Below are positions 33,773 through 45,677 of a DNA stretch of 45,677 nucleotides, one piece after another (positions within the stretch are counted from its first letter, which is position 1; every line of letters begins with the position of its first letter). Both the position numbers and the translations under genes were made by a program. The notes under the pieces are model-generated. The model was not told the DNA's origin. It saw nothing but the letters and a program-made list of their open reading frames with translations, and did not search any database. Origin of the DNA: Candidatus Saccharimonadota bacterium (lineage in GTDB: Bacteria > Patescibacteriota > Saccharimonadia > Saccharimonadales > Saccharimonadaceae); the NCBI GenBank assembly GCA_030529135.1, contig JAUMXO010000004.1, positions 1 to 45,677 on the forward strand, written 5' to 3'.

Positions 33773-34027
33773 ATGGCACTGAAACCATTGAATGATAGAG
33801 TGGTGGCAATAGTAGAGAAGCCACTAGAAAAAACTAAATCTGGAATACTTTTGGGTGAAGCCAAAGAAAAGCCAGCTTATGCTGTGGTGGAATCGGTGGG
33901 TCCTGATGTAAAGGGGGTAAAGAAAGGTGACAAGATCGTTTATAAGGAATATTCTACTACTGATATAAAAATAGATGAGAAAAATTATATCATCTTGAAA
34001 GAAGAAGATATTTTAGCTACTTTATAA
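33773..34027 (+). CDS. groES: Co-chaperonin GroES
   Basis: An 84-aa chaperonin lid subunit. PLNDRVVAI is the N-terminal signature, KTKSGILL corresponds to the mobile loop that docks GroEL, and VKKGDKIVYKEY and ILKEEDILATL complete the beta-barrel. It is about 10-13 residues shorter than E. coli GroES. The missing residues fall in the roof/dome loop, after SVGPDV. AAAAGGAG precedes the ATG. It is followed 17 nt later by groEL with the same ribosome site, forming one operon behind the CIRCE-like element. Confidence 0.95.
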   Translation: MALKPLNDRVVAIVEKPLEKTKSGILLGEAKEKPAYAVVESVGPDVKGVKKGDKIVYKEYSTTDIKIDEKNYIILKEEDILATL

Positions 34028-34044
34028 TTTAAAAAGGAGTAAAA

Positions 34045-35658
34045 ATGGCGAAAAAAATTTTTTATGAAGCAGAAGCGCGGGAAAAAGTGCTATCTGGAGC
34101 AAAACAATTATATGATGCAGTAAAAGTGACTTTTGGTCCAAAAGGTAAGAATGTAATTATTGAAAAAGATTATGGTGCGCCAGTAATTACGCATGATGGT
34201 GTAACTGTGGCAGAGGCGGTGGATTTACCTTCTAAAGAAGATACAATGGGTGAAGCGATAGGCGCTAAATTGATTAAGACTGCAGCCCAAAAATTAAATA
34301 AGGCTGCTGGTGATGGTACTACTACGGTGACCGTGCTTACATACAATATACTATCAGAAGCCAATAAGTTAATTGCGGCTGGCCTAAATCCAATGGAGCT
34401 TAGAAAAGGGATTGAAAAAGCTGGTGCAGAGATTATAAAGGGAATTGAAAAATCCGCTGAAAAGATTGAAGGAAATTCTAAAAAAGTAGCAGAAGTGGCG
34501 ACAATTTCAGCTGGTGATGCTGAAATTGGTGAATTGATTGCGGAAGTAATTTCAAAAATTGGTAAAGATGGTGTGGTGACAGTAGAGGCGGGCCAAGGGC
34601 TTGAAATGGAACAGGAAATCGTAGAAGGTTTTTCTTACGACAAGGGCTATGCATCGGCTTTCTTTGTAACTGATGTGAATCGACAAGAGGCAGTGTTTGA
34701 TAAACCTTTGATACTGGTGGCTGAAAATAAAATTTCGGCAGCTAATGATATTCTGCCGCTTCTAGAGAAATGTGCACAGGCTGGTAAAAAAGATTTGGTG
34801 ATTGTGGCTGAGGAAGTAGAGGGAGAAGCCTTATCGCTATTGGTGCTAAACAAGCTAAAAGGTGTATTCAATTCTTTGGTCCTTAAAGCTCCGTCTTTTG
34901 GCGACCGTCGTAAAGACATTATGGAAGATATTGCTATTTTGACTGATGCGACTGTAGTATCTAGCAACAAGGGTTTGAAGCTAGAAGAAGTGGGCTTAGA
35001 GGTGCTTGGCTCGGCAGGTAAGGTAATTGCAACAAAAGATGAAACTACTATTATTAAGGGGGCAGGAGCGAGAAATGAAGTCGGAGCTAGAATTGAATTG
35101 ATTAATTCTTTGGCGGAAAATGCAAAGACTGACTACGAAAGAGAAGAATTCGAAAAACGAGCGGCAGCGCTTTCTGGTAAAGTGGCAGTGATTAAAGTGG
35201 GTGGTGCTACTGAAACTGAAATTGATGAGAAAAAGTTTCGTGTGGATGATGCAGTGGCAGCCACGAAGGCTGCGCTTGCTGAAGGTATCGTTGCTGGTGG
35301 TGGCGTGACTTTAGTGAATCTAGCCAAGGACCTAGATGCTTCTGACAATGGTGCTAGAATTGTAAAAGAGGCTTTAAAAGCTCCGTTTATACACATCATG
35401 GAAAATGCTGGACTTAATGCACAGGCGCTCTTAGCTGAAGTAGAAAGTTCGTCCAAGCTTGGTTTTGGTGTAAACGTAATGGCTCCAGAAAAGGGCTTGA
35501 TAGATTTAAAGAAAGCTGGGGTGATTGATCCAGCTAAGGTAACTAAAGAAGCAGTAAAAAATGCTACTTCAATTGCAGCAACAGCAATTACGATGGGGGC
35601 CTTGATTTGTGAGATCCCGGAAGAAAAGCCAACTGCTGCAGCTCCAGAGATGTACTAA
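34045..35658 (+). CDS. groEL: Chaperonin GroEL
   Basis: A 537-aa ATP-driven chaperonin. It shows KVTFGPKGKNVIIE, the nucleotide loop GDGTTTVTVL, AGLNPMELRKGI, YDKGYASAFFVTD, KAPSFGDRRKDIMEDIA and VAGGGVTLV, all in order, with full length. The C-terminus is EKPTAAAPEMY rather than the Gly-Gly-Met repeat of many GroELs. An AAAAAGGAG ribosome site lies just upstream. It is co-transcribed with groES and possibly with the TetR-type gene 21 nt downstream. Confidence 0.98.
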   Translation: MAKKIFYEAEAREKVLSGAKQLYDAVKVTFGPKGKNVIIEKDYGAPVITHDGVTVAEAVDLPSKEDTMGEAIGAKLIKTAAQKLNKAAGDGTTTVTVLTYNILSEANKLIAAGLNPMELRKGIEKAGAEIIKGIEKSAEKIEGNSKKVAEVATISAGDAEIGELIAEVISKIGKDGVVTVEAGQGLEMEQEIVEGFSYDKGYASAFFVTDVNRQEAVFDKPLILVAENKISAANDILPLLEKCAQAGKKDLVIVAEEVEGEALSLLVLNKLKGVFNSLVLKAPSFGDRRKDIMEDIAILTDATVVSSNKGLKLEEVGLEVLGSAGKVIATKDETTIIKGAGARNEVGARIELINSLAENAKTDYEREEFEKRAAALSGKVAVIKVGGATETEIDEKKFRVDDAVAATKAALAEGIVAGGGVTLVNLAKDLDASDNGARIVKEALKAPFIHIMENAGLNAQALLAEVESSSKLGFGVNVMAPEKGLIDLKKAGVIDPAKVTKEAVKNATSIAATAITMGALICEIPEEKPTAAAPEMY

Positions 35659-36901: not shown

Positions 36902-37369
36902 TTAAATGCGCAAGAAATTTACAATTTTATCCAATAAGTCTACTTTGACTTCCTCCATAGGAAGCCTAGCTCCTAATGCATCCACAATGGCTTCGCCGCT
37001 GCTTTCAGGAAAATAAATTTTAATACTTAATCCTAAACGTTTTTTGGGTATCAGAACGGCACTGTAATGTCCGTTTTCGTTAACGATACCGAAAGCGCGG
37101 TAATCATTAAAAGAATGCTTGATTTTGCCTTCTTTGATGCCACTGTTATTTAATGTGTAACGGATTTTGCGGGCGGGACGAAGATTAAAAACTAAAATAG
37201 CGATAGCGCTGACGATGATTAATACGAGAAAGCTCCAACCCTGAAGCCAGACGGCAAGGGCACCTAGTCCGGCTGTAACGATAAATAGTCCGAAGTACCA
37301 CCAGCCATTATGTGATTTTACGATATATTCTTCTGCCTCCCAAGATATAGATTCTGATTTATTTACCAT
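36902..37369 (-). CDS. Small two-helix membrane protein, unknown
   Basis: A 155-aa protein. Two adjacent membrane helices (about 24-42 and 46-65) are followed by a beta-rich cytoplasmic domain starting RPARKIRYTLNNSGI, with GKIKHSFNDYRAFGIV, reminiscent of a PH-like domain but not a confident match. ATG 37369 is chosen: TGCTATAAT on the minus strand ends exactly 6 nt before it. The upstream ATG at 37387 lies within that -10 region. The stop is 49 bp from the gene before it. No function can be assigned. Confidence 0.68.
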   Translation of the reverse strand: MVNKSESISWEAEEYIVKSHNGWWYFGLFIVTAGLGALAVWLQGWSFLVLIIVSAIAILVFNLRPARKIRYTLNNSGIKEGKIKHSFNDYRAFGIVNENGHYSAVLIPKKRLGLSIKIYFPESSGEAIVDALGARLPMEEVKVDLLDKIVNFLRI

Positions 37370-37384
37370 AACCTTATTATAGCA
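37370..37384 (-). promoter_or_regulatory. Extended -10 promoter, leaderless type
   Basis: TGCTATAAT (complement of 37376-37384) stands six nucleotides upstream of ATG 37369 with no ribosome site between. Confidence 0.6.
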
Positions 37385-37408
37385 CATCTTTGTTTTTTAA
37401 TTTAAATA

Positions 37409-37610: not shown

Positions 37611-37991
37611 ATGAGAAAGATACTAAAACTTATTTTACCATTATTAGTTTGTGTATTTACGATTGGCTTGTGTGTGGCTATGAGCACTGATACTTCGGCG
37701 ATGACGCTTCGCGAAGGGGCCGAAGCAGCCAAGTGCGATGAGTGTCCTGAAAATCTGTTTGGCGATGAAGGGGTATTTAAACAGATTACTAATATAGTGC
37801 TTTACATTGTGGGTGTGGTTGCGGTGATTATGTTGATTATTGGTGGTATTAAATATGTGGTGTCTGGTGGTGATGCGAAGAAAGTAACTGATGCTAAAAA
37901 TACTGTGCTATATGCAATTATTGGTCTAGTAATCGCTTTCCTCGCTTTTGCAATTGTAAATTTCGTAATTACTTCGTTGCCAAGTGCTTAA
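37611..37991 (+). CDS. VirB2/TrbC-family pilin-like protein
   Basis: A 126-aa protein with a signal-peptide-like N-terminus (helix about 5-25 ending STDTSA), a short acidic segment with two Cys (CDEC), and two membrane helices (about 62-80 and 98-118) joined by a cytosolic loop SGGDAKKVTDAKNTVLYAIIG. The two-helix hairpin with this SGD-x-K-x-AK-T loop matches the TrbC/VirB2 major pilin family (PF04956). The same loop recurs in three genes to the right. It likely sits in the membrane before assembly into a pilus. It starts 6 nt after the -10 and overlaps the convergent comF by 4 nt. Confidence 0.82.
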   Translation: MRKILKLILPLLVCVFTIGLCVAMSTDTSAMTLREGAEAAKCDECPENLFGDEGVFKQITNIVLYIVGVVAVIMLIIGGIKYVVSGGDAKKVTDAKNTVLYAIIGLVIAFLAFAIVNFVITSLPSA

Positions 37992-38722
37992 TCAGAATAA
38001 GCTAGTAGTGCTATAATGGTTTTTTGTGCTCCGGCGCGCCTAAGGATGTTTACGGCCGCCTTAATGGAGGCGCCAGTAGTCCAGACGTCGTCTAAAAGGA
38101 TGTAAGTACTATTAGGGTTAAGTGCTGTTTTTGAGTTTAAAGTGTAGGCTGACGGGGCTTGCAGAAGGCGTTGTTTCCTGGTGGCACCGACCTGGACGAT
38201 ATTTTTATTTCTGAGTAGAATGCGTTTTACTGGGATATGTCGAATTTTGGATAAGCGCTTGGCTATTAGGTAGGTATGGTCTAATCCTCGGCTACGGATG
38301 TGATTGGTAGCAGTAGGGAGGGGAACGAGGATGGAATTTCTAGGTAGAGTTTTTGGTAAGCTGATATCTAGAAGTTCGGCGAGCGGACGGGCAAGGGCAC
38401 GGACTGAATGGTATTTGTAATCGTGAATAAGACTACCGACTATACCGTTTCGATTAGAAACGACATAAATGGGGGGCAAATTTTTACAATTGAGACACAA
38501 ACCAGTAGGGTTTGATTTTTTACAATTAGAGCAAATGTTTTGATGGGATTTTAAAATGTTATTTTTACAACACTTGCAAAATGGTTCACCTAGACGCCCA
38601 CAACCTCTACAAGAGTGGGGTGAAAGTAGGTCTAGAAGGTTTGGAAATGTTGTATTTTTTACAATAATTGGCACAATTCTCTTGATTTTACTACAAAAGT
38701 GGTTTATAATAAAGCATAACAA
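37988..38722 (-). CDS. comF: ComF family phosphoribosyltransferase-like protein
   Basis: A 244-aa protein from ATG 38722 (or 228 aa from GTG 38674). The N-terminus carries a zinc-ribbon-like set CRGCG, CKCC, CSNC and CLNC. The middle has VPLPT, and the C-terminus the PRPP-binding loop ILLDDVWTTGAS. ComF is needed for DNA uptake in naturally competent bacteria, linked to ComFA at the inner membrane. The start is uncertain because the 38722 ATG sits inside the divergent hsp20 promoter region, while the GTG at 38674 comes shortly before the family's LLDLL segment. Its position among pilin genes supports a DNA-uptake link. Confidence 0.88.
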   Translation of the reverse strand: MLCFIINHFCSKIKRIVPIIVKNTTFPNLLDLLSPHSCRGCGRLGEPFCKCCKNNILKSHQNICSNCKKSNPTGLCLNCKNLPPIYVVSNRNGIVGSLIHDYKYHSVRALARPLAELLDISLPKTLPRNSILVPLPTATNHIRSRGLDHTYLIAKRLSKIRHIPVKRILLRNKNIVQVGATRKQRLLQAPSAYTLNSKTALNPNSTYILLDDVWTTGASIKAAVNILRRAGAQKTIIALLAYSD

Positions 38723-38738
38723 TATAAGTGGAGGAAAT
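38682..38738 (+). promoter_or_regulatory. hsp20 promoter with -35 and -10
   Basis: TTGATT (38682-38687), 17 nt, TATAAT (38705-38710), then GGAGG (38730-38734) and ATG 38739. Unlike most promoters here it relies on a -35 box rather than TGN. The boxes lie inside the 5' part of comF. No CIRCE repeat is visible. Confidence 0.6.
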
Positions 38739-39236
38739 ATGGCTCGTACAAATAGTGATGATTTGTTAGACGATGACCTAGCTGCAGCCTTTTTGGATGA
38801 GGAAGTAGCAGTTCCAGACGCGAAGGATGCGGCTCAGGAATTAGTGGCACCGGAAACTAGCGAACAACCAGCCGAAGACGAGTGGGCGAATGATACCGAC
38901 GATTTCCCAGGACAACTAGCAGTAGATGTCTATGAAACCGCCGATAAATTAGTGGTAAAAGCAAGAACTGCGGGGATTTCTAAATCCGATCTTGATGTGA
39001 GTATTGCTGATAATATTTTAACTATTTCTGGTGTGCTTTCTGGTGGGGAAGACGAACAGACTACTAGATGGCATATTCAAGAGTGCTATTGGGGAGAGTT
39101 TTCCAGGATGATTGCGCTTCCAGTCCAGGTGCGCGAAGATGAGAATAGCGTAAAAGCTGAGCTCAAAGACGGTGTTCTTACTATTACATTTGAGAAGGAA
39201 AAAGTAGAAGCGCCAAAAAGAATTGCAATTCAATAG
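38739..39236 (+). CDS. Hsp20 small heat-shock protein
   Basis: A 165-aa holdase chaperone. Residues 1-60 form an acidic, Asp/Glu/Ala-rich arm. The alpha-crystallin domain (about 66-160) shows LAVDVYETADKLVVKA, DNILTISG, the ECYWGEFSRMIALP segment and KDGVLTITFEK (the usual A/K-x-DGVLT signature). It ends with a short C-terminal tail AIQ. The ATG at 38739 is set by GGAGG 4 nt upstream; longer in-frame readings from 38556 would overlap comF. It is followed by a GC-rich terminator. Confidence 0.9.
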   Translation: MARTNSDDLLDDDLAAAFLDEEVAVPDAKDAAQELVAPETSEQPAEDEWANDTDDFPGQLAVDVYETADKLVVKARTAGISKSDLDVSIADNILTISGVLSGGEDEQTTRWHIQECYWGEFSRMIALPVQVREDENSVKAELKDGVLTITFEKEKVEAPKRIAIQ

Positions 39237-39279
39237 AGAGTGGGCGATTAAGCTGTGATACGCTTGGGTTGTACGAACG

Positions 39280-39307
39280 ATCGGACCTTCTGGGTCCGAT
39301 TTGTTTT
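39280..39307 (+). terminator. Intrinsic terminator after hsp20
   Basis: ATCGGACC (39280-39287) pairs with GGTCCGAT (39293-39300) over a 5-nt loop and is followed by TTGTTTT. It is a good rho-independent terminator for the hsp20 transcript. Confidence 0.8.
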
Positions 39308-39321
39308 ATCTGCAGATAAAA
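39304..39321. repeat. 18-bp perfect palindrome
   Basis: TTTTATCTGCAGATAAAA is fully self-complementary. It begins in the T-run of the hsp20 terminator and shares its last four A residues with the next, larger palindrome, so only one of the two hairpins can form at a time. Confidence 0.75.
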
Positions 39322-39357
39322 TAATAAATCCGGTTTTAAAACCGGATTTATTATTTT
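39318..39357. terminator. 40-bp perfect palindrome, bidirectional terminator
   Basis: Both halves (39318-39337 and 39338-39357) are exact reverse complements. The core is CCGG with T4/A4 at the centre and A/T-rich ends that give a T-run on either strand. It lies between convergent hsp20 (ends 39236) and a pilin gene (ends 39380), so it can end both transcripts. Confidence 0.75.
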
Positions 39358-39379
39358 GTGTAGCTGGATAGCTTAACTT

Positions 39380-39694
39380 TTACTTTGCGCCTATGATGTT
39401 GGTTATGACAAAGTTGACGATGGCAAAGGCAAGTACACAAACTACGAGGCCAATGACACCGTAGAGAATAGTATCTTTGGCTTTTTTGACCTTGCCGGCA
39501 TCGCCTGATGAGGTCATATAGTTAACGCCACCGATGATAATGACGATTACACAGACAAGTGCGAGTACGCCTACAACGGCATTGATGATTGCTATAATGG
39601 TATTCTGGAGAGAATCACCACTACCATACTTCTCACCGACTTGTTTTATATCTATTTTATCCCCTGCGCCAAAGTGGGTTAAAATGTTATTCAT
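39380..39694 (-). CDS. VirB2/TrbC-family pilin-like protein
   Basis: A 104-aa protein. After a polar 30-residue N-terminus without an obvious signal peptide come two membrane helices (about 32-55 and 77-100), joined by the loop SSGDAGKVKKAKDTILYGVIG, nearly identical in pattern to the other pilins here. The C-terminus ends FVITNIIGAK. ATG 39694 follows AAAGGA by 8 nt, and a TTGCAA-N17-TAAAAT promoter lies upstream. It is a structural pilus subunit candidate. Confidence 0.82.
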   Translation of the reverse strand: MNNILTHFGAGDKIDIKQVGEKYGSGDSLQNTIIAIINAVVGVLALVCVIVIIIGGVNYMTSSGDAGKVKKAKDTILYGVIGLVVCVLAFAIVNFVITNIIGAK

Positions 39695-39754
39695 TTTAAT
39701 TAATCCTTTATCTTAATTTAATACCATTTTATAACTTTTTTAAAAAGATTGCAA
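39695..39754 (-). promoter_or_regulatory. -35/-10 promoter of a pilin gene
   Basis: On the minus strand TTGCAA (39749-39754), a 17-nt spacer containing the A/T palindrome CTTTTTTAAAAAG region (39735-39747), TAAAAT (complement of 39726-39731), then AAAGGA (39703-39708) before ATG 39694. Confidence 0.45.
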
Positions 39755-39771
39755 GAGTTTTGTGGAGTGTC

Positions 39772-40227
39772 TTATGAACTAGAAATTGTTATGCTACTGA
39801 CTGCTGGTTCATCTTCTCCATCACTTTCTCCGCTACCTGAACCGTTAATCACTTTGGCGATGACAAAATTGACTATGGCGAAGGTTAACGCAGCAACAAT
39901 AAGTCCGATGGCTGCATAAAGGATGGTTTTTTTAGCTTTCTCTAGCTTGGCGGAGTCGCCAGAAGAAGTCATGAGACCGATTGCCCCTACTACAATATAG
40001 ATAGCAGCAACTGCACCAAGGATACCAACGACACCGTTGATGGCGCCAACGATGACATCTGAAATGTCGGTAGTAGACCCTCCACAACCATTAGCTGCTT
40101 TGACGTCAGGATCGGTATATTTGTCACATGCGTTGACCGCATAACTTGGGGTGATTGGTAAAAGAATAGAAGAGAATATTGTTATTAGAAAAACAGCAAT
40201 AATTCCGATTTTTTTAGGTAATTTCAT
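39772..40227 (-). CDS. VirB2/TrbC-family pilin-like protein with signal peptide
   Basis: A 151-aa protein. MKLPKKIG starts a signal peptide (helix about 7-25) with a likely cleavage near PSYAVNA. A short Cys-containing segment (ACDKY, NGCGG) is followed by two helices (about 62-85 and 103-125) with the loop SSGDSAKLEKAKKTILYAAIG, and a Ser/Gly/Glu-rich tail. The ATG at 40227 has a perfect AGGAGG just upstream inside the preceding gene (14-nt overlap), which rules out the longer reading from 40347. It is part of an operon with the double-pilin gene. Confidence 0.84.
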   Translation of the reverse strand: MKLPKKIGIIAVFLITIFSSILLPITPSYAVNACDKYTDPDVKAANGCGGSTTDISDVIVGAINGVVGILGAVAAIYIVVGAIGLMTSSGDSAKLEKAKKTILYAAIGLIVAALTFAIVNFVIAKVINGSGSGESDGEDEPAVSSITISSS

Positions 40228-40951
40228 TTTCCTCCTTATTGATATTAATACTAATTTTGGAATCAAGGGAAGATTGGCTAGAAGATCTGATGGTACTAGT
40301 AATAAATGCGGTGAGGATTTCAGCAAAAGCGACAATAAGTAGGCCAATTAGGGCATACATGATGGTGGTTTTGGCTTTTTGGAGTTTTGTAGGATCGCCA
40401 GAAGCGGTGATATATCCCCAAGCACCAACTACGACAAAAATAGCACACACTGCTCCGGCCATGCCGCCAACCCAGCCGATAATGTTAGAGACTATGCTTT
40501 CAGGATCGACGCACTGGCTATCCACGCACGTTCCTAAACTGCCACCACTGCCTATTAATGCAATTCGGATACTACTAAAAATAATATACGCGCAAATAAC
40601 GATGGCGATGCCAGTAAAAGCATGAACTAGGGTCTTTTTACCAATGGCGGCTTTGCCACTATCACCGGATGAAAACATATAAAGGTAGCCACCCCAGATA
40701 ACGTAGCCGAGTATAAGATAACCAGCAATGACTGTGATGTCAGTAAGAATGTTGGTGGCAATCTTAGCAATAGCAGTAACGAGCTGGTCTTCGCTTTTTA
40801 TGTCACTGAGATTTACGCCTTCATCCCATGGTGGCATGCCGAGAATGGCTTCGGTAGCATAAGTAGGGTTTGGGGTGGTTAAGCTAATGGTAGCAGATAT
40901 TACAGTAACAACCCCTAGAAAGACAACAATTTTTTTGAGAAAATTACTCAT
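40214..40951 (-). CDS. Double VirB2-like pilin protein (two pilin domains)
   Basis: A 245-aa protein with a signal peptide (residues about 5-32, ending NPTYATEA). Two VirB2-type hairpins follow in one chain. Copy 1 has helices about 66-90 and 108-130 with loop SSGDSGKAAIGKKTLVHAFTG. A linker with two Cys (GTCVDSQCVD) leads to copy 2, with helices about 155-177 and 195-215 and loop ASGDPTKLQKAKTTIMYALIG. Single-domain pilins of this family are about half as long. It could be a fused minor or tip subunit, or a membrane scaffold. It leads the operon with the pilin at 39772 and diverges from the VirB6-like gene. Confidence 0.8.
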   Translation of the reverse strand: MSNFLKKIVVFLGVVTVISATISLTTPNPTYATEAILGMPPWDEGVNLSDIKSEDQLVTAIAKIATNILTDITVIAGYLILGYVIWGGYLYMFSSGDSGKAAIGKKTLVHAFTGIAIVICAYIIFSSIRIALIGSGGSLGTCVDSQCVDPESIVSNIIGWVGGMAGAVCAIFVVVGAWGYITASGDPTKLQKAKTTIMYALIGLLIVAFAEILTAFITSTIRSSSQSSLDSKISININKEENEIT

Positions 40952-41068
40952 ATATTTAAATAATAACGATATTTTGAAGAAAAGTCAATAAAATAGGGGG
41001 TATAAACATTGACAAAAGTGCTTATGTGTGCTATAATGGTTGACAAGCCTAATTGGAAGGCGATTTTT
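40952..41068. promoter_or_regulatory. Divergent consensus promoters of the T4SS block
   Basis: Leftward: TTGACT (complement of 40983-40988), 17 nt, TATTAT (complement of 40960-40965), ATG 40951. Rightward: TTGACA (41009-41014), 17 nt ending TGTGC, TATAAT (41032-41037), then GGAAGG (41055-41060) and ATG 41069. The rightward one is the only exact consensus -35/-10 pair at 17 nt in the window and also has the TGN element. Confidence 0.75.
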
Positions 41069-44000
41069 ATGATGATAGTAAAAAAATACCTGGAAAAAGG
41101 CATTAAAAATAAGGTTTTTGGGTGTTTTTTTGCTATTTTCCTAATGCTTTCTGGTCTTTTTGGAGCTATTCCTGGAACAATAAATAATGTATATGCTGAA
41201 CCAGAGGAAGAAACTCCGGCAGCGGAGGAAGAAAAAGCCGATGGTTCGGCAGATATGAATGCAACCTGTAAAGATAGCTTAGGGTCTTTGGGATGGCTGG
41301 TCTGTCCTACAACGGAAAAAATTTCGCATGCGACGGATTTTTTGTATGACAAAATTGAAGATATATTAGAGATAAATCCGGTGGAAGCGAAGGATGGTTC
41401 GCCAGTATATGAAATTTGGAAATATTTTCAAGGTGCAACAAACGTTTTGTTTGCGTTGTTCTTATTAATAGTAGTACTCTCGCAAATTACTGGGGTAGGG
41501 ATTACTAATTATGGCATAAAGAAGACGTTGCCGAAATTGATTATTGCGGCAATACTTGTAAATCTATCGTTCTTTATTTGTTCGCTAGCTGTAGACGTGT
41601 CAAATATTTTTGGGGGAGGAATAAGAGGATTATTTGATTCTATTGCGGCGAGTGCTTCTGCTAATATAGAATCGAGTTCAATAGATGCGGGGGTCGGATT
41701 ATCTGAAGCATATTCTGCGATGGCGGGCGGTACAGCTCTTACGATAGGTGGGCTGGCAATAGCTTTTGAAACAGGAGCGATTTGGATGTTGATACCACTG
41801 GTTTTTGGTGCATTAGTCTCTGTGGTGATTGGGCTGATTACGATTGCAATGCGGCAGGCAGTAGTGACGCTACTTATTATGATTGCGCCTATTGCAATGG
41901 TGGCTTATATCTTGCCAAATACAGAGCCGTGGTTCAAAAAATGGCGACATATGCTGATCCAGATGATTATATTCTATCCGGCTTTTTCACTCTTATTTGG
42001 GGCTTCGAGTGTAGCGGGATGGGCGATTATCGTATCTTCGCAGAATAATGGTTTTGGTGTATTGATTGGAATGGCAGTGCAAATTTTCCCACTTTTCTTC
42101 TCCTGGAGCTTGATGAAGATGTCTGGTACGATACTTGGGACGATTAATTCCAAGCTTAACAGTCTTGCGAGTGGTGCGATTGGCGGAGTGCGCGGTTGGG
42201 CAACTTCTCATCAAACACTTTCTAGACAAAAACATCTAGCATCTCCGAATGCTTATAGCCCATCTATGAAATTACAGCAGTATTTATCTGATAGAAAGAT
42301 TGCGAGAGAAGAAGAAACAAGAGAACATACTGAGACCATAAAAAATAGAGGTATGTATTATGCTGCAAATAGAAATTATAAAAATGGTATACCGACTAAG
42401 GAAGCGGAGGGGGCTTATGAGGCACAAGCTCGTAATATGAGATATCAAGAGGGGATTTTGAGACATAAGAATAATATGAATAAGGGGCTTGGTCAGCTAG
42501 AGGCCTTAAAGGAAAATGGTACTATAGCGCAAAAAGCAAGGATTAACGAACTTGATGTTGATAACGTAAAAGCTTCAGATAATTTGAAGATGGAGCAAGC
42601 ACGTGGTGAGAGGATTGATTACAAGAACGCGGTTGGTTTCCATAATAGGATGGAAGCGGCAATGAACGCGCATATGGATGATTTGCAGTCACGAGGTAGA
42701 TTATTGAATGCACAAGGAAACCCTGTAATAGACCCTGAGTATGTGAGACATTTTGCGTCTGGTAGTACGGAGGAAAAGATTGCATCTGATAGATATAATG
42801 AACTTTCTAAAATTATGGAGGGCAATGCTCAAGATGCGCACTATGCGGCAGCTGTAGCGGCACATGCTTATGATACACAGAATAAGATTATGGCAACCAA
42901 GATGCAAAAATATTTTGAGCTAACTCCGCCAACTAAAGATGTAATGTATAGATTAGATGAGTTGACAAAAGTGGCTTCCACTACAGAAAATAAAATAAAA
43001 GCGGCAGAGAATATTGATGCGATTATCGCTGGGCTTAGAGTGCTTAATGCACGTGGTGATACTGATTTGGTTAAATATGAGATGGATAATATCTTGGATA
43101 AATCTATCGGTGGTGGAATCCAACTTGGTACACACGCATCGCAAGCTTTGGCTTCATTCTTGATGTTTGAAGTAAAAGATAGTGACCCATGGCTTCGACG
43201 ATTTGGTAAGTATATAAACTTAGAAACTGCGCAAGTTTATAATGGAGATAAGCGGAAAAATCGGGATTTTGATTATGAAGAATATGTTAGAGGTTATCAT
43301 ACGGAATTAAACGAAGAAACCGGTCAATTGGAACAGGTCTTTGCTAAAAAGGGTATGGTAGAACTGATGGAAGGTACTTCACTTGACAACATTGAACGAA
43401 CGGCGCTTTCTAATTTTGACGAGAGTTTGAGAAAAGCTTATACGAGTTATGAGAATGGTCAGGCGAATTTGAATGTAAAAGAATATCTTGAAAGGCGAAA
43501 AGAAGTGCAGACGGCAATTGGTCCACAATTTATCTCGGCAAGCCTGAAATATTTGTCTGGTAGCGAGCAATTAGTCAGTGCAGTAAAGTTTTTGACTGGG
43601 TATAAGAAAAAAACAGGTGTTGAAACTTATGTAGGCGAGGATGGTAAAGAGTATAGTCGTGCTGTAGCTAAGTGGGTGCCTGAATGGGAGAATCTTGACA
43701 ACGATACGCAGGATGAGATGAAAAAGTTCTTTGAGAAGCAAACTCTAGATTATATTGCTGCACAGACTCCATCGCAGATTTTGGGACTCAGGTCTGATTA
43801 TAAGGATCCACTCTTTGGCCATTTGGCAGATTCTTATATGGAGCCGGAAGATATAGAGGAGTGGGACGAAGACGCTATTCTTGAACGTGAAAATTATATG
43901 AGGGAATGGTCTGATATCCAGACTAGGTATGGAGATTTGCCTAATGATGAGGCGAAGACTAAACGAGATAAGGATGAGAAGGATCTTAGAAAGAGAATGG

Positions 44001-44494
44001 CTGGTGCGCAGCTTAGACGGATACTTGATGGTAAAGGTAAATTGAATCAAATATATAGAACGAGACGTTCTGGCGCGGCAAACAATGCTAAAGACTGGGT
44101 AAGAGAATTGCTTGATCTTGATAACGAAGTGGTAATTACGGCAAAGTTAGAAAATGATAGGCGTAAACTTAGAGAAGAGTATGACAGGGCTAAAAAAGAG
44201 AAGGCACAGAATCAAAAAGATGGTGATACTGTGGATGATAATTCTTCAAGAATATACACTACTGATGAGATGAACGACTTTGTAACTCACGTTGAGCAGT
44301 TATGGGATGAATTGAAGAATGAAGATGATGAAGTTTTTTATAGAGAATCATTAAAATATATTAGAAAAGAAATTGGCGGAGGAAGTTTTATTGCAATTCA
44401 GTACAGAAAGTATAGAGAAGATGATCCATATGCTGACGGTGAAACGCTTAGGGATTATTTGGAAGGTTTGTTAAATAATCCGGACAACTATTAA
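41069..44494 (+). CDS. VirB6/TrbL-like T4SS membrane protein with giant C-terminal tail
   Basis: A 1141-aa protein. There is a signal-like helix (about 14-34), then an acidic segment and a Cys pair. Membrane helices lie at about 122-142, 153-178, 225-290 (several) and 295-355, a layout like VirB6/TrbL inner-membrane channel proteins. Residues about 360-1141 are soluble, highly charged, helical and Ala/Glu/Lys/Asn-rich, far longer than a usual VirB6. The start ATG 41069 is set by GGAAGG and the promoter; the in-frame TTG at 41009 is the -35 box. It precedes a PrgI gene and a probable VirB4 gene. The tail may reach into the cytoplasm or, if topology is reversed, outside. Confidence 0.78.
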   Translation: MMIVKKYLEKGIKNKVFGCFFAIFLMLSGLFGAIPGTINNVYAEPEEETPAAEEEKADGSADMNATCKDSLGSLGWLVCPTTEKISHATDFLYDKIEDILEINPVEAKDGSPVYEIWKYFQGATNVLFALFLLIVVLSQITGVGITNYGIKKTLPKLIIAAILVNLSFFICSLAVDVSNIFGGGIRGLFDSIAASASANIESSSIDAGVGLSEAYSAMAGGTALTIGGLAIAFETGAIWMLIPLVFGALVSVVIGLITIAMRQAVVTLLIMIAPIAMVAYILPNTEPWFKKWRHMLIQMIIFYPAFSLLFGASSVAGWAIIVSSQNNGFGVLIGMAVQIFPLFFSWSLMKMSGTILGTINSKLNSLASGAIGGVRGWATSHQTLSRQKHLASPNAYSPSMKLQQYLSDRKIAREEETREHTETIKNRGMYYAANRNYKNGIPTKEAEGAYEAQARNMRYQEGILRHKNNMNKGLGQLEALKENGTIAQKARINELDVDNVKASDNLKMEQARGERIDYKNAVGFHNRMEAAMNAHMDDLQSRGRLLNAQGNPVIDPEYVRHFASGSTEEKIASDRYNELSKIMEGNAQDAHYAAAVAAHAYDTQNKIMATKMQKYFELTPPTKDVMYRLDELTKVASTTENKIKAAENIDAIIAGLRVLNARGDTDLVKYEMDNILDKSIGGGIQLGTHASQALASFLMFEVKDSDPWLRRFGKYINLETAQVYNGDKRKNRDFDYEEYVRGYHTELNEETGQLEQVFAKKGMVELMEGTSLDNIERTALSNFDESLRKAYTSYENGQANLNVKEYLERRKEVQTAIGPQFISASLKYLSGSEQLVSAVKFLTGYKKKTGVETYVGEDGKEYSRAVAKWVPEWENLDNDTQDEMKKFFEKQTLDYIAAQTPSQILGLRSDYKDPLFGHLADSYMEPEDIEEWDEDAILERENYMREWSDIQTRYGDLPNDEAKTKRDKDEKDLRKRMAGAQLRRILDGKGKLNQIYRTRRSGAANNAKDWVRELLDLDNEVVITAKLENDRRKLREEYDRAKKEKAQNQKDGDTVDDNSSRIYTTDEMNDFVTHVEQLWDELKNEDDEVFYRESLKYIRKEIGGGSFIAIQYRKYREDDPYADGETLRDYLEGLLNNPDNY

Positions 44495-44521
44495 ACTTGT
44501 TTATGTTTATATTGAAGATTA

Positions 44522-44536
44522 TGGTATAATTAGTAT
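44522..44536 (+). promoter_or_regulatory. PrgI-family gene promoter, leaderless type
   Basis: TGGTATAAT (44522-44530) ends six nucleotides before ATG 44537; no ribosome site fits. It gives the PrgI gene a transcript separate from the VirB6-like gene. Confidence 0.62.
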
Positions 44537-45598
44537 ATGGCGCAGTATAAAGTGCCTCAGGATGTTGAGGCGGACGATAAGTTGCTCGGACCGTTCAGTT
44601 TTCGGCAGTTCGTTTATCTTTTGATTGCTGCTGGATTGGGGGCGATGGCGGTGGGGCTTTTCCAACTATTTCCATTGCTTGCGATTTTACCAATTCTTCC
44701 TGCGGTATTTTTCTTAGCGCTGGCTTTGCCGCTCAAAAAAGATCAGCCGATGGAAACATACCTTGCGGCAGTAATTTCGTATTATTTAAAACCACATTCG
44801 AGATGGTGGATGCCAGGGCAGAGGGAAACCACGATTTTAATTACGGCGCCTAAGAAAGTAGACGAGAATAGGACGAGAGATATTTCTGGTGAAGAGGCTA
44901 CACATAGATTGTCATTTCTCGCAGATATTGTAGATACTGGTGGTTATGCGATCAAAGGTATGGGGTCTAGCCCAATACGAGAAGATTTGATGGCAGAAGC
45001 AAATGCAACTCCAGATATGTTTGAAACTTATCAATCTCAAGTACTTAATCGTGTGATTGACCAGGATAAGATGAGCCGTCATGAGACTGCGGTTAGGGAA
45101 ATGAAAGAAGCGATTAAGAGAAATACGGATGCAGGAAAAATTCCAGACGAACCAGAACCAGAACCAGTCAAAAAAGAAATTACGCCGGAGCAAAAAGAAC
45201 CGGCTAACAAAGGACCAGAAGAAGAACGAATGTTATATGAACCGATATTAAGGCCAGCTTCGAAAGATGACAAGAAGAAGCTAAGAGATTCTATAAATTA
45301 TAATTTGCGTGATTCTGCAGTTTTGAAGCCAGACATTGATATTGATAGTACTGATGTAGTGGTAAGACCGCAATTAAATATAGACAAAGGATTAAACGAA
45401 GAAGAAAAATCTGAAGAGGAGATGTCTGGAGACAGAAGTGAATCCGAAAACGAAGAAAAATCTTCCACAAAACCGGTTAATGATAGTATAATGGAGTTAG
45501 CAAATAACAAAGATTTTTCAGTTGCGACCATTGCAAAAGAAGCTAATAGAATAAACAGAAAGGAAAAGGGTGAGGAAGTCTTTATCTCGCTGCACTAA
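44537..45598 (+). CDS. PrgI family protein (T4SS-associated)
   Basis: A 353-aa protein. The first 110 residues match the PrgI family (PF12666): MAQYKVPQDVEADDKLLGPFS, RQFVYLL, two helices (about 25-45 and 48-66), then PMETYLAAVISYYLKPHSRWW. PrgI proteins lie beside VirB4 in Gram-positive conjugation modules (VirB3-like role). The remaining 240 residues are a charged cytoplasmic extension rich in Glu, Lys and Pro, with short EPEPEP repeats. Start ATG 44537 is 6 nt after the -10, so the mRNA is likely leaderless. It is followed after 3 nt by the next gene. Confidence 0.9.
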   Translation: MAQYKVPQDVEADDKLLGPFSFRQFVYLLIAAGLGAMAVGLFQLFPLLAILPILPAVFFLALALPLKKDQPMETYLAAVISYYLKPHSRWWMPGQRETTILITAPKKVDENRTRDISGEEATHRLSFLADIVDTGGYAIKGMGSSPIREDLMAEANATPDMFETYQSQVLNRVIDQDKMSRHETAVREMKEAIKRNTDAGKIPDEPEPEPVKKEITPEQKEPANKGPEEERMLYEPILRPASKDDKKKLRDSINYNLRDSAVLKPDIDIDSTDVVVRPQLNIDKGLNEEEKSEEEMSGDRSESENEEKSSTKPVNDSIMELANNKDFSVATIAKEANRINRKEKGEEVFISLH

Positions 45599-45601
45599 GT
45601 T

Positions 45602-45677
45602 ATGAATCCACAACAACCACAACAGATTTTACCAAATCAAAATGTGCCTCAACAACCACAACAGATTTTGCCAGGAC
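45602..45677 (+). CDS. Start of probable VirB4-type ATPase gene (partial)
   Basis: The open frame begins at ATG 45602, 3 nt after the PrgI stop, and runs off the window after 25 codons. It reads MNPQQPQQILPNQNVPQQPQ and continues in a Gln/Pro-rich manner with a repeated PQQPQQILP unit. No catalytic motif is in view. A VirB4/TraC ATPase is expected here because PrgI genes normally precede it. That identity is inference from order only. There is no clear ribosome site, so it is probably coupled to the PrgI gene. Confidence 0.5.
   Translation, partial: MNPQQPQQILPNQNVPQQPQQILPG
45611..45669 (+). repeat. 20-bp direct repeat in gene start
   Basis: CAACAACCACAACAGATTTT occurs exactly at 45611-45630 and 45650-45669, offset 39 nt (13 codons), encoding the repeated Gln/Pro unit. 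The in-frame offset means copy-number change would lengthen the N-terminus without a frameshift. Confidence 0.7.

Follow-up and report, generated by a model that had tools for sequence, protein, structure and literature searches.

A Patescibacteria-type T4SS with a pilin array, and the comF gene beside it, in a member of Saccharibacteria

Genes and operons of the locus

We analysed a stretch of 45,677 nucleotides (the window), namely positions 1-45677 of a contig of 74 kb. The genome, of 787 kb, consists of 23 contigs and is 97% complete. VirB4 of this genome is 94% identical to VirB4 of Saccharibacteria MAGs from the ruminant gut. The window contains four pilin genes, comF, hsp20, a VirB6/TrbL-like gene, prgI and the start of a TrsD-like gene. 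The contig runs beyond the window end, and the remaining half of the T4SS cluster can be read there: VirB4, a lysozyme/NlpC-P60-like wall hydrolase, dnaJ and rny, in this order. The gene types of the cluster were checked by profile searches.

All four pilin-like genes named in an earlier note on this DNA score above the cut-off of PF18895 (T4SS_pilin), but the number of pilin domains is five, one of the genes being double. The VirB2-like gene 1 (37611-37991, plus strand, 126 aa; E 5.2e-14) lies on the outer side of comF; a pilin in this position is usual in close relatives and mostly missing elsewhere in the order. The other three are on the minus strand. Gene 2 (39380-39694, 104 aa; E 2.3e-15), also VirB2-like, matches NF045849 as well, with 59.9 bits at a cut-off of 40. 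The VirB2-like gene 3 has an ORF of 191 aa (39772-40347; E 1.2e-9), whose mechanically assigned start falls inside gene 4 and whose true start is probably further in. Gene 4 (40214-40951, 245 aa) is the tandem double-domain gene, with two stretches matching PF18895 (E 1.2e-20). Multi-domain pilin ORFs are found in close relatives too (63 of 496 pilin ORFs), and PF18895 pilin matches are present in 132 of the 149 genomes of the order. In addition, contig C19 (L007, 13439-13843) carries an orphan T4SS_pilin-like gene immediately 3' of a sigma factor gene.

The VirB6-like channel protein of the earlier note is a candidate with a weak profile match (PF04610, E 5.6e-4; 20.2 bits, below the cut-off of 25.9). 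Its gene (41069-44494, plus strand) encodes a polytopic VirB6/TrbL-like protein with a long hydrophilic C-terminal region; both length and placement fit, as the relatives read have it with the pilins on one side and PrgI on the other. The ORF is open from 41009, where its listed TTG start coincides with the -35 box of a promoter-like site, and the gene likely starts at the ATG at 41069. This site, a sigma-70 promoter of the consensus extended -10 type by sequence (41009-41037, plus strand; TTGACA-17-TATAAT, 12/12 match), would serve a virB6-prgI-trsD-virB4 operon. At a match of at least 11/12, it is seen in 66 of 67 close relatives, compared to 1 of 67 shuffles. Order-wide conservation was considered and rejected, with 2/25 beyond the close relatives, where the test is weak, as the profile match begins far inside the gene. 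For the pilin genes, a promoter-like site lies on the minus strand at 40988-40960 (TTGACT-17-TATTAT, 10/12 match). Since the promoter-like sites face opposite ways, we infer two divergent operons, the pilins being read one way and virB6-prgI-trsD-virB4 the other way.

PrgI, similar to VirB3 (44537-45598, plus strand), was recognised correctly in the earlier note: it exceeds the PF12666 cut-off of 27 with 45.7 bits (E 9.9e-12) and has a C-terminal extension of ∼260 aa. By contrast, the ORF starting at 45602, which had been taken for the beginning of VirB4, is TrsD-like (45602-45677 in the window, plus strand; NF041427, E 1.3e-7, though below the curated cut-off). It crosses a scaffold gap of 10 N, at which the window stops, and ends at contig position 46541. 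VirB4 proper is at contig positions 46537-48357 (NF045971, 388 bits, cut-off 325). The TrsD-like protein is related to the N-terminal part of VirB4, and this part is apparently carried here on the separate trsD gene.

Further downstream are a gene for a secreted protein of 426 aa (contig 48391-49671), dnaJ (49730-50641) and rny (51103-52620). A Pfam search with the 426-aa protein gave no match, so we used its fold for identification. A family model built from 18 relatives (pLDDT 76, pTM 0.49) had as its top Foldseek matches the cell-wall hydrolases 4fdy (1.5e-4) and 4hpe (2.8e-4), followed by further NlpC/P60 and lytic-transglycosylase matches, and the Cys and His of the NlpC/P60 part are invariant. 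The assignment of the modelled protein as a two-domain VirB1-like wall hydrolase is thus strongly supported. Only 40 of 78 close loci showed a homologue downstream.

Relation to known systems and the question of conjugation

The cluster is similar to the T4SS of Candidatus Southlakia epibionticum ML1 (SEML1_0006-0019) and to the Patescibacteria VirB4 clade (PMC10633639, PMC12102498). The likeness lies in a chromosomal location, a pilin array, VirB6 (here a candidate), PrgI, TrsD, VirB4 and a downstream wall hydrolase, with no adjacent coupling protein or relaxase. Unlike Southlakia, the window has four pilin genes, one of them a tandem fusion and one an extra pilin beyond comF, features known here from the sequence. 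FATA-like T4SS with pilin arrays occur phylum-wide in Patescibacteria (PMC12102498). With the MPF-FATA systems (pGO1/TrsD, pCF10/PrgI, the C. difficile CTn), the locus shares VirB4 above the NF045971 cut-off, TrsD and PrgI; a further likeness is the predicted two-domain wall hydrolase, whose best fold matches are NlpC/P60 hydrolases of Gram-positives. In contrast to these systems, it has neither a relaxase nor an adjacent VirD4, and it has VirB2-like pilins, which are missing from FATA (PMC12102498). Almost certainly, the locus is the already described Patescibacteria T4SS, an MPF-FATA type extended by a pilin array; the window cluster is an ordinary member and an instance of this published system.

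The earlier note saw no relaxase or conjugation gene and argued against conjugation, and both statements hold. There is no relaxase gene in the window or just downstream, and no coupling protein in the window or within ∼8 kb past virB4. VirB4 and a wall hydrolase do follow the window, as had been anticipated, but VirD4, anticipated together with them, is not adjacent, and nothing conjugative lies there. The relaxase profile PF03432 had no match in the 149 genomes of the order, that of the window included. PF13814 matched in 29 of 149 genomes and had no match in the window genome, and PF01076 had no match in the window genome either, a weak result, as the control was also empty. This agrees with published descriptions (PMC10633639, PMC12102498), in particular of saccharibacterial T4SS without recognisable coupling and relaxase proteins (PMC10633639).

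Coupling genes are often distant from their T4SS. A VirD4-like coupling-type ATPase of 996 aa is encoded on contig C9 (L008, 2986-5976), near cell-wall and division genes and far from the T4SS, and could act on it in trans. A conjugation machine comprised of the cluster, an unrecognised relaxase and this distant protein would accord with the homology of the cluster to conjugation machinery. We consider it extremely improbable: apart from the empty relaxase searches, the T4SS is chromosomal and present in nearly the whole order with conserved synteny, the T4CP homologue of S. epibionticum is non-essential, and Saccharibacteria carry separate element-like T4SS loci. The locus is probably a T4SS of Saccharibacteria that is chromosomal, retained by vertical descent and non-conjugative.

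A second, sporadic T4SS type was observed in G147:C1 (L161, 6447-16951), with VirD4, a CHAP hydrolase, a pilin-VirB6 fusion and a reverse transcriptase. Its VirB4 is ∼41% identical, and a Replic_Relax match is located ∼12 kb off; this is probably a conjugative element.

comF, hsp20 and the Com genes across the order

The comF ORF (37988-38722, minus strand) is ComFC-like (TIGR00201, E 3.6e-20) and of the usual type, with both the zinc-ribbon cysteines and the PRTase motif ILLDDVWTTGAS; the GTG near 38659 probably marks its true start. comF and the outer pilin gene 1 run towards each other, and their ORFs share 4 bp; on the other side of comF, divergently oriented, is hsp20, a small heat-shock protein gene (38739-39236, plus strand; PF00011, E 4.6e-19). 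In the promoter scan, hsp20 had its own promoter-like site (38682-38710), and a terminator-like hairpin with a 10-pair stem and a T-rich tail (39279-39301, plus strand) separates it from the pilin genes. Given these promoter-like sites and the hairpin, comF is probably not co-transcribed with either T4SS operon. comF does lie within the locus, as the earlier note had it, but forms no operon with the pilins, and hsp20 between them had been overlooked. Other chaperone genes flank the cluster, with groES/groEL (33773-35658) ahead of it and dnaJ after it.

Almost every region read from the order shows the same gene order: up161 (a relative of window positions 36902-37387), comF, hsp20, pilins, VirB6, PrgI, TrsD, VirB4. 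hsp20 adjoins comF in nearly all relatives read, and of the 67 genomes with comF and virB4 on one contig, 64 have comF upstream of virB4 and on the other strand. The position of comF within the cluster is a trait of the close relatives of the window, which usually have the extra outer pilin; elsewhere it is mostly found at the cluster border. In three genomes (G014, G034, G127), comF and hsp20 are paired at a distance from the T4SS.

The earlier note had inferred DNA uptake from comF. In that case T4SS and comF, together with ComEC, would form an uptake machine like the ComB system of Helicobacter. Indeed, comF adjoins the pilins throughout the order, and comF, recG and radA near T4SS genes have been mentioned, for the class ABY1 only (PMC12102498). 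Still, the distribution of the Com genes points elsewhere. Of the 149 genomes of the order, 135 have virB4-like matches and 117 comF-profile matches (103 strong). We counted comF, comEC and dprA in the 91 virB4-positive genomes with completeness of at least 95%: 67 have both comF and comEC, four comF only, three comEC only and 17 neither. All three genes are present in 66 and all three are missing in 15 of these genomes, which keep virB4 by selection of the sample; most of the regions read that lack comF do show the other T4SS genes. comEC and virB4 are unlinked in good genomes (p 0.40; the Fisher p-values ignore kinship).

Moreover, deletions, frameshifts or stops affect comF in situ where the T4SS next to it is intact. 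In some relatives it is cleanly gone between up161 and hsp20, with no masked bases, and G120, G126 and G140 retain broken remnants of it, with the T4SS intact. In genus g8 of the window's family, comF has an in-frame TGA in all four genomes (G106, G133, G137, G139). Stop recoding was rejected as the cause, as virB4 is open in the same genomes. The TGA sites differ (L202-L205), except that they coincide in two near-identical genomes, and the comEC frames of G106 and G137 are shortened. Among sister genomes, G102 has none of the three Com genes and its congeners G098 and G113 have them; all three keep virB4. On the VirB4 tree, the state with all three lost requires eight changes, at least three of them on well-supported branches. 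The tree-corrected sign test, which rests on few well-supported independent pairs, gave three in the same direction and none in the opposite one (p 0.25). The association of comF with comEC is therefore strong by genome counts and consistent in direction, and it is not significant after tree correction.

Absence calls are blurred by metagenome-assembled genomes, profile thresholds and N stretches, so virB4-negative genomes were left out of the interpretation. In G147:C1 (L136, 1-5504), the T4SS core reads N, imitating absence of virB4. Joint absence of the T4SS and comF, as in G020, G068, G132 and others, was rejected as a case of co-loss, since N stretches mimic absence and adjacent genes vanish together. 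G020, G068 and G132 are good genomes with no virB4, pilin or comF matches, in which comEC and dprA are present.

Since relatives drop comF along with comEC and dprA and keep the machine, comF is probably not a T4SS part; it probably works in ComEC/DprA transformation, has hsp20 as its partner gene and only neighbours the T4SS. Published genetics are in line with this: in Southlakia, the T4SS is essential, whereas comEC, comF and dprA are dispensable, with comEC required for transformation (PMC10633639; Wang 2023; Quinonero-Coronel 2025), and a review has concluded that T4SS essentiality cannot stem from interaction with ComEC (PMC12857230). Transformation needs ComEC, and loss of comEC, comF and dprA is tolerated while that of the T4SS is not; DNA uptake via comF is therefore unsupported. 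In the window genome, ComEC, DprA and the T4P ATPases, the last of these being usual uptake parts like ComEC, are encoded elsewhere. Taken with the 15 genomes that have virB4 only and with comF decaying beside intact T4SS, this makes an uptake machine built on comF very unlikely.

Genomes that have the T4SS and lack the Com genes are, in effect, natural transformation knock-outs that keep the machine. In three papers (PMC10633639, PMC12102498, PMC12857230), we did not find stated either the order-wide comF-hsp20-pilin order or the joint loss of comF, comEC and dprA with the T4SS kept. What we add here is the association of comF, the order-wide comF-hsp20 order beside the pilins, and the loss of Com genes with the T4SS retained. 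These parasites cannot do without their T4SS, and experiments on it can be framed better once comF is no longer taken to prove DNA uptake.

Possible mode of action

A role in interaction with the host, which the earlier note had suggested in the form of attachment, is supported by published work on S. epibionticum, which cannot grow on its host without the T4SS cluster orthologous to that of the window (PMC10633639). The gene content points most likely to a contact-dependent translocation machine used on the host. Where the epibiont touches its host cell, the pilins may build a short filament or conduit, and the wall hydrolase would open the wall. PrgI/VirB3 would act as an anchor and the VirB6-like protein as the channel, with VirB4 powering assembly and the transfer of macromolecules between epibiont and host. 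As the parts are those of export systems, protein export is favoured, and the cargo would most likely be protein; both direction and cargo are deduced from the parts. Taken as a whole, this mode of action is the best explanation and seems rather probable.

A T4SS could also act inwards. Import of macromolecules by the T4SS has been proposed (PMC12102498), and an essential system with no relaxase in an auxotroph would suit it: host DNA or other macromolecules would be drawn in without ComF and ComEC, as in the archaeal Ced system, to feed a nucleotide auxotroph. The archaeal Ced/Ted systems likewise have a VirB4-type ATPase and no relaxase, but their accessory genes differ, no import component was recognised here, and VirB4 of the window genome fits the exporting conjugation family (388 bits) far better than CedB (45.9 bits). 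We regard import as unlikely. Still to be accounted for is why comF stays next to the T4SS throughout the order. An inward T4SS that draws in host DNA or macromolecules without ComEC, with comF-hsp20 as a relic or a regulatory link, is quite unlikely.

Contact-dependent translocation also has to be weighed against a pilus for attachment only, an adhesive pilin filament that moves no cargo. The pilin array consists of diverse paralogues, and known T4SS pili serve mainly attachment (PMC12857230), so that such a filament is conceivable. However, the full channel set of VirB6, PrgI, TrsD and VirB4 is kept together with the pilins, which makes attachment as the sole function quite improbable, and the thick pilus that cryo-ET shows in TM7x is, in the judgement of its describers, unlikely to belong to a T4SS (PMC12206443).
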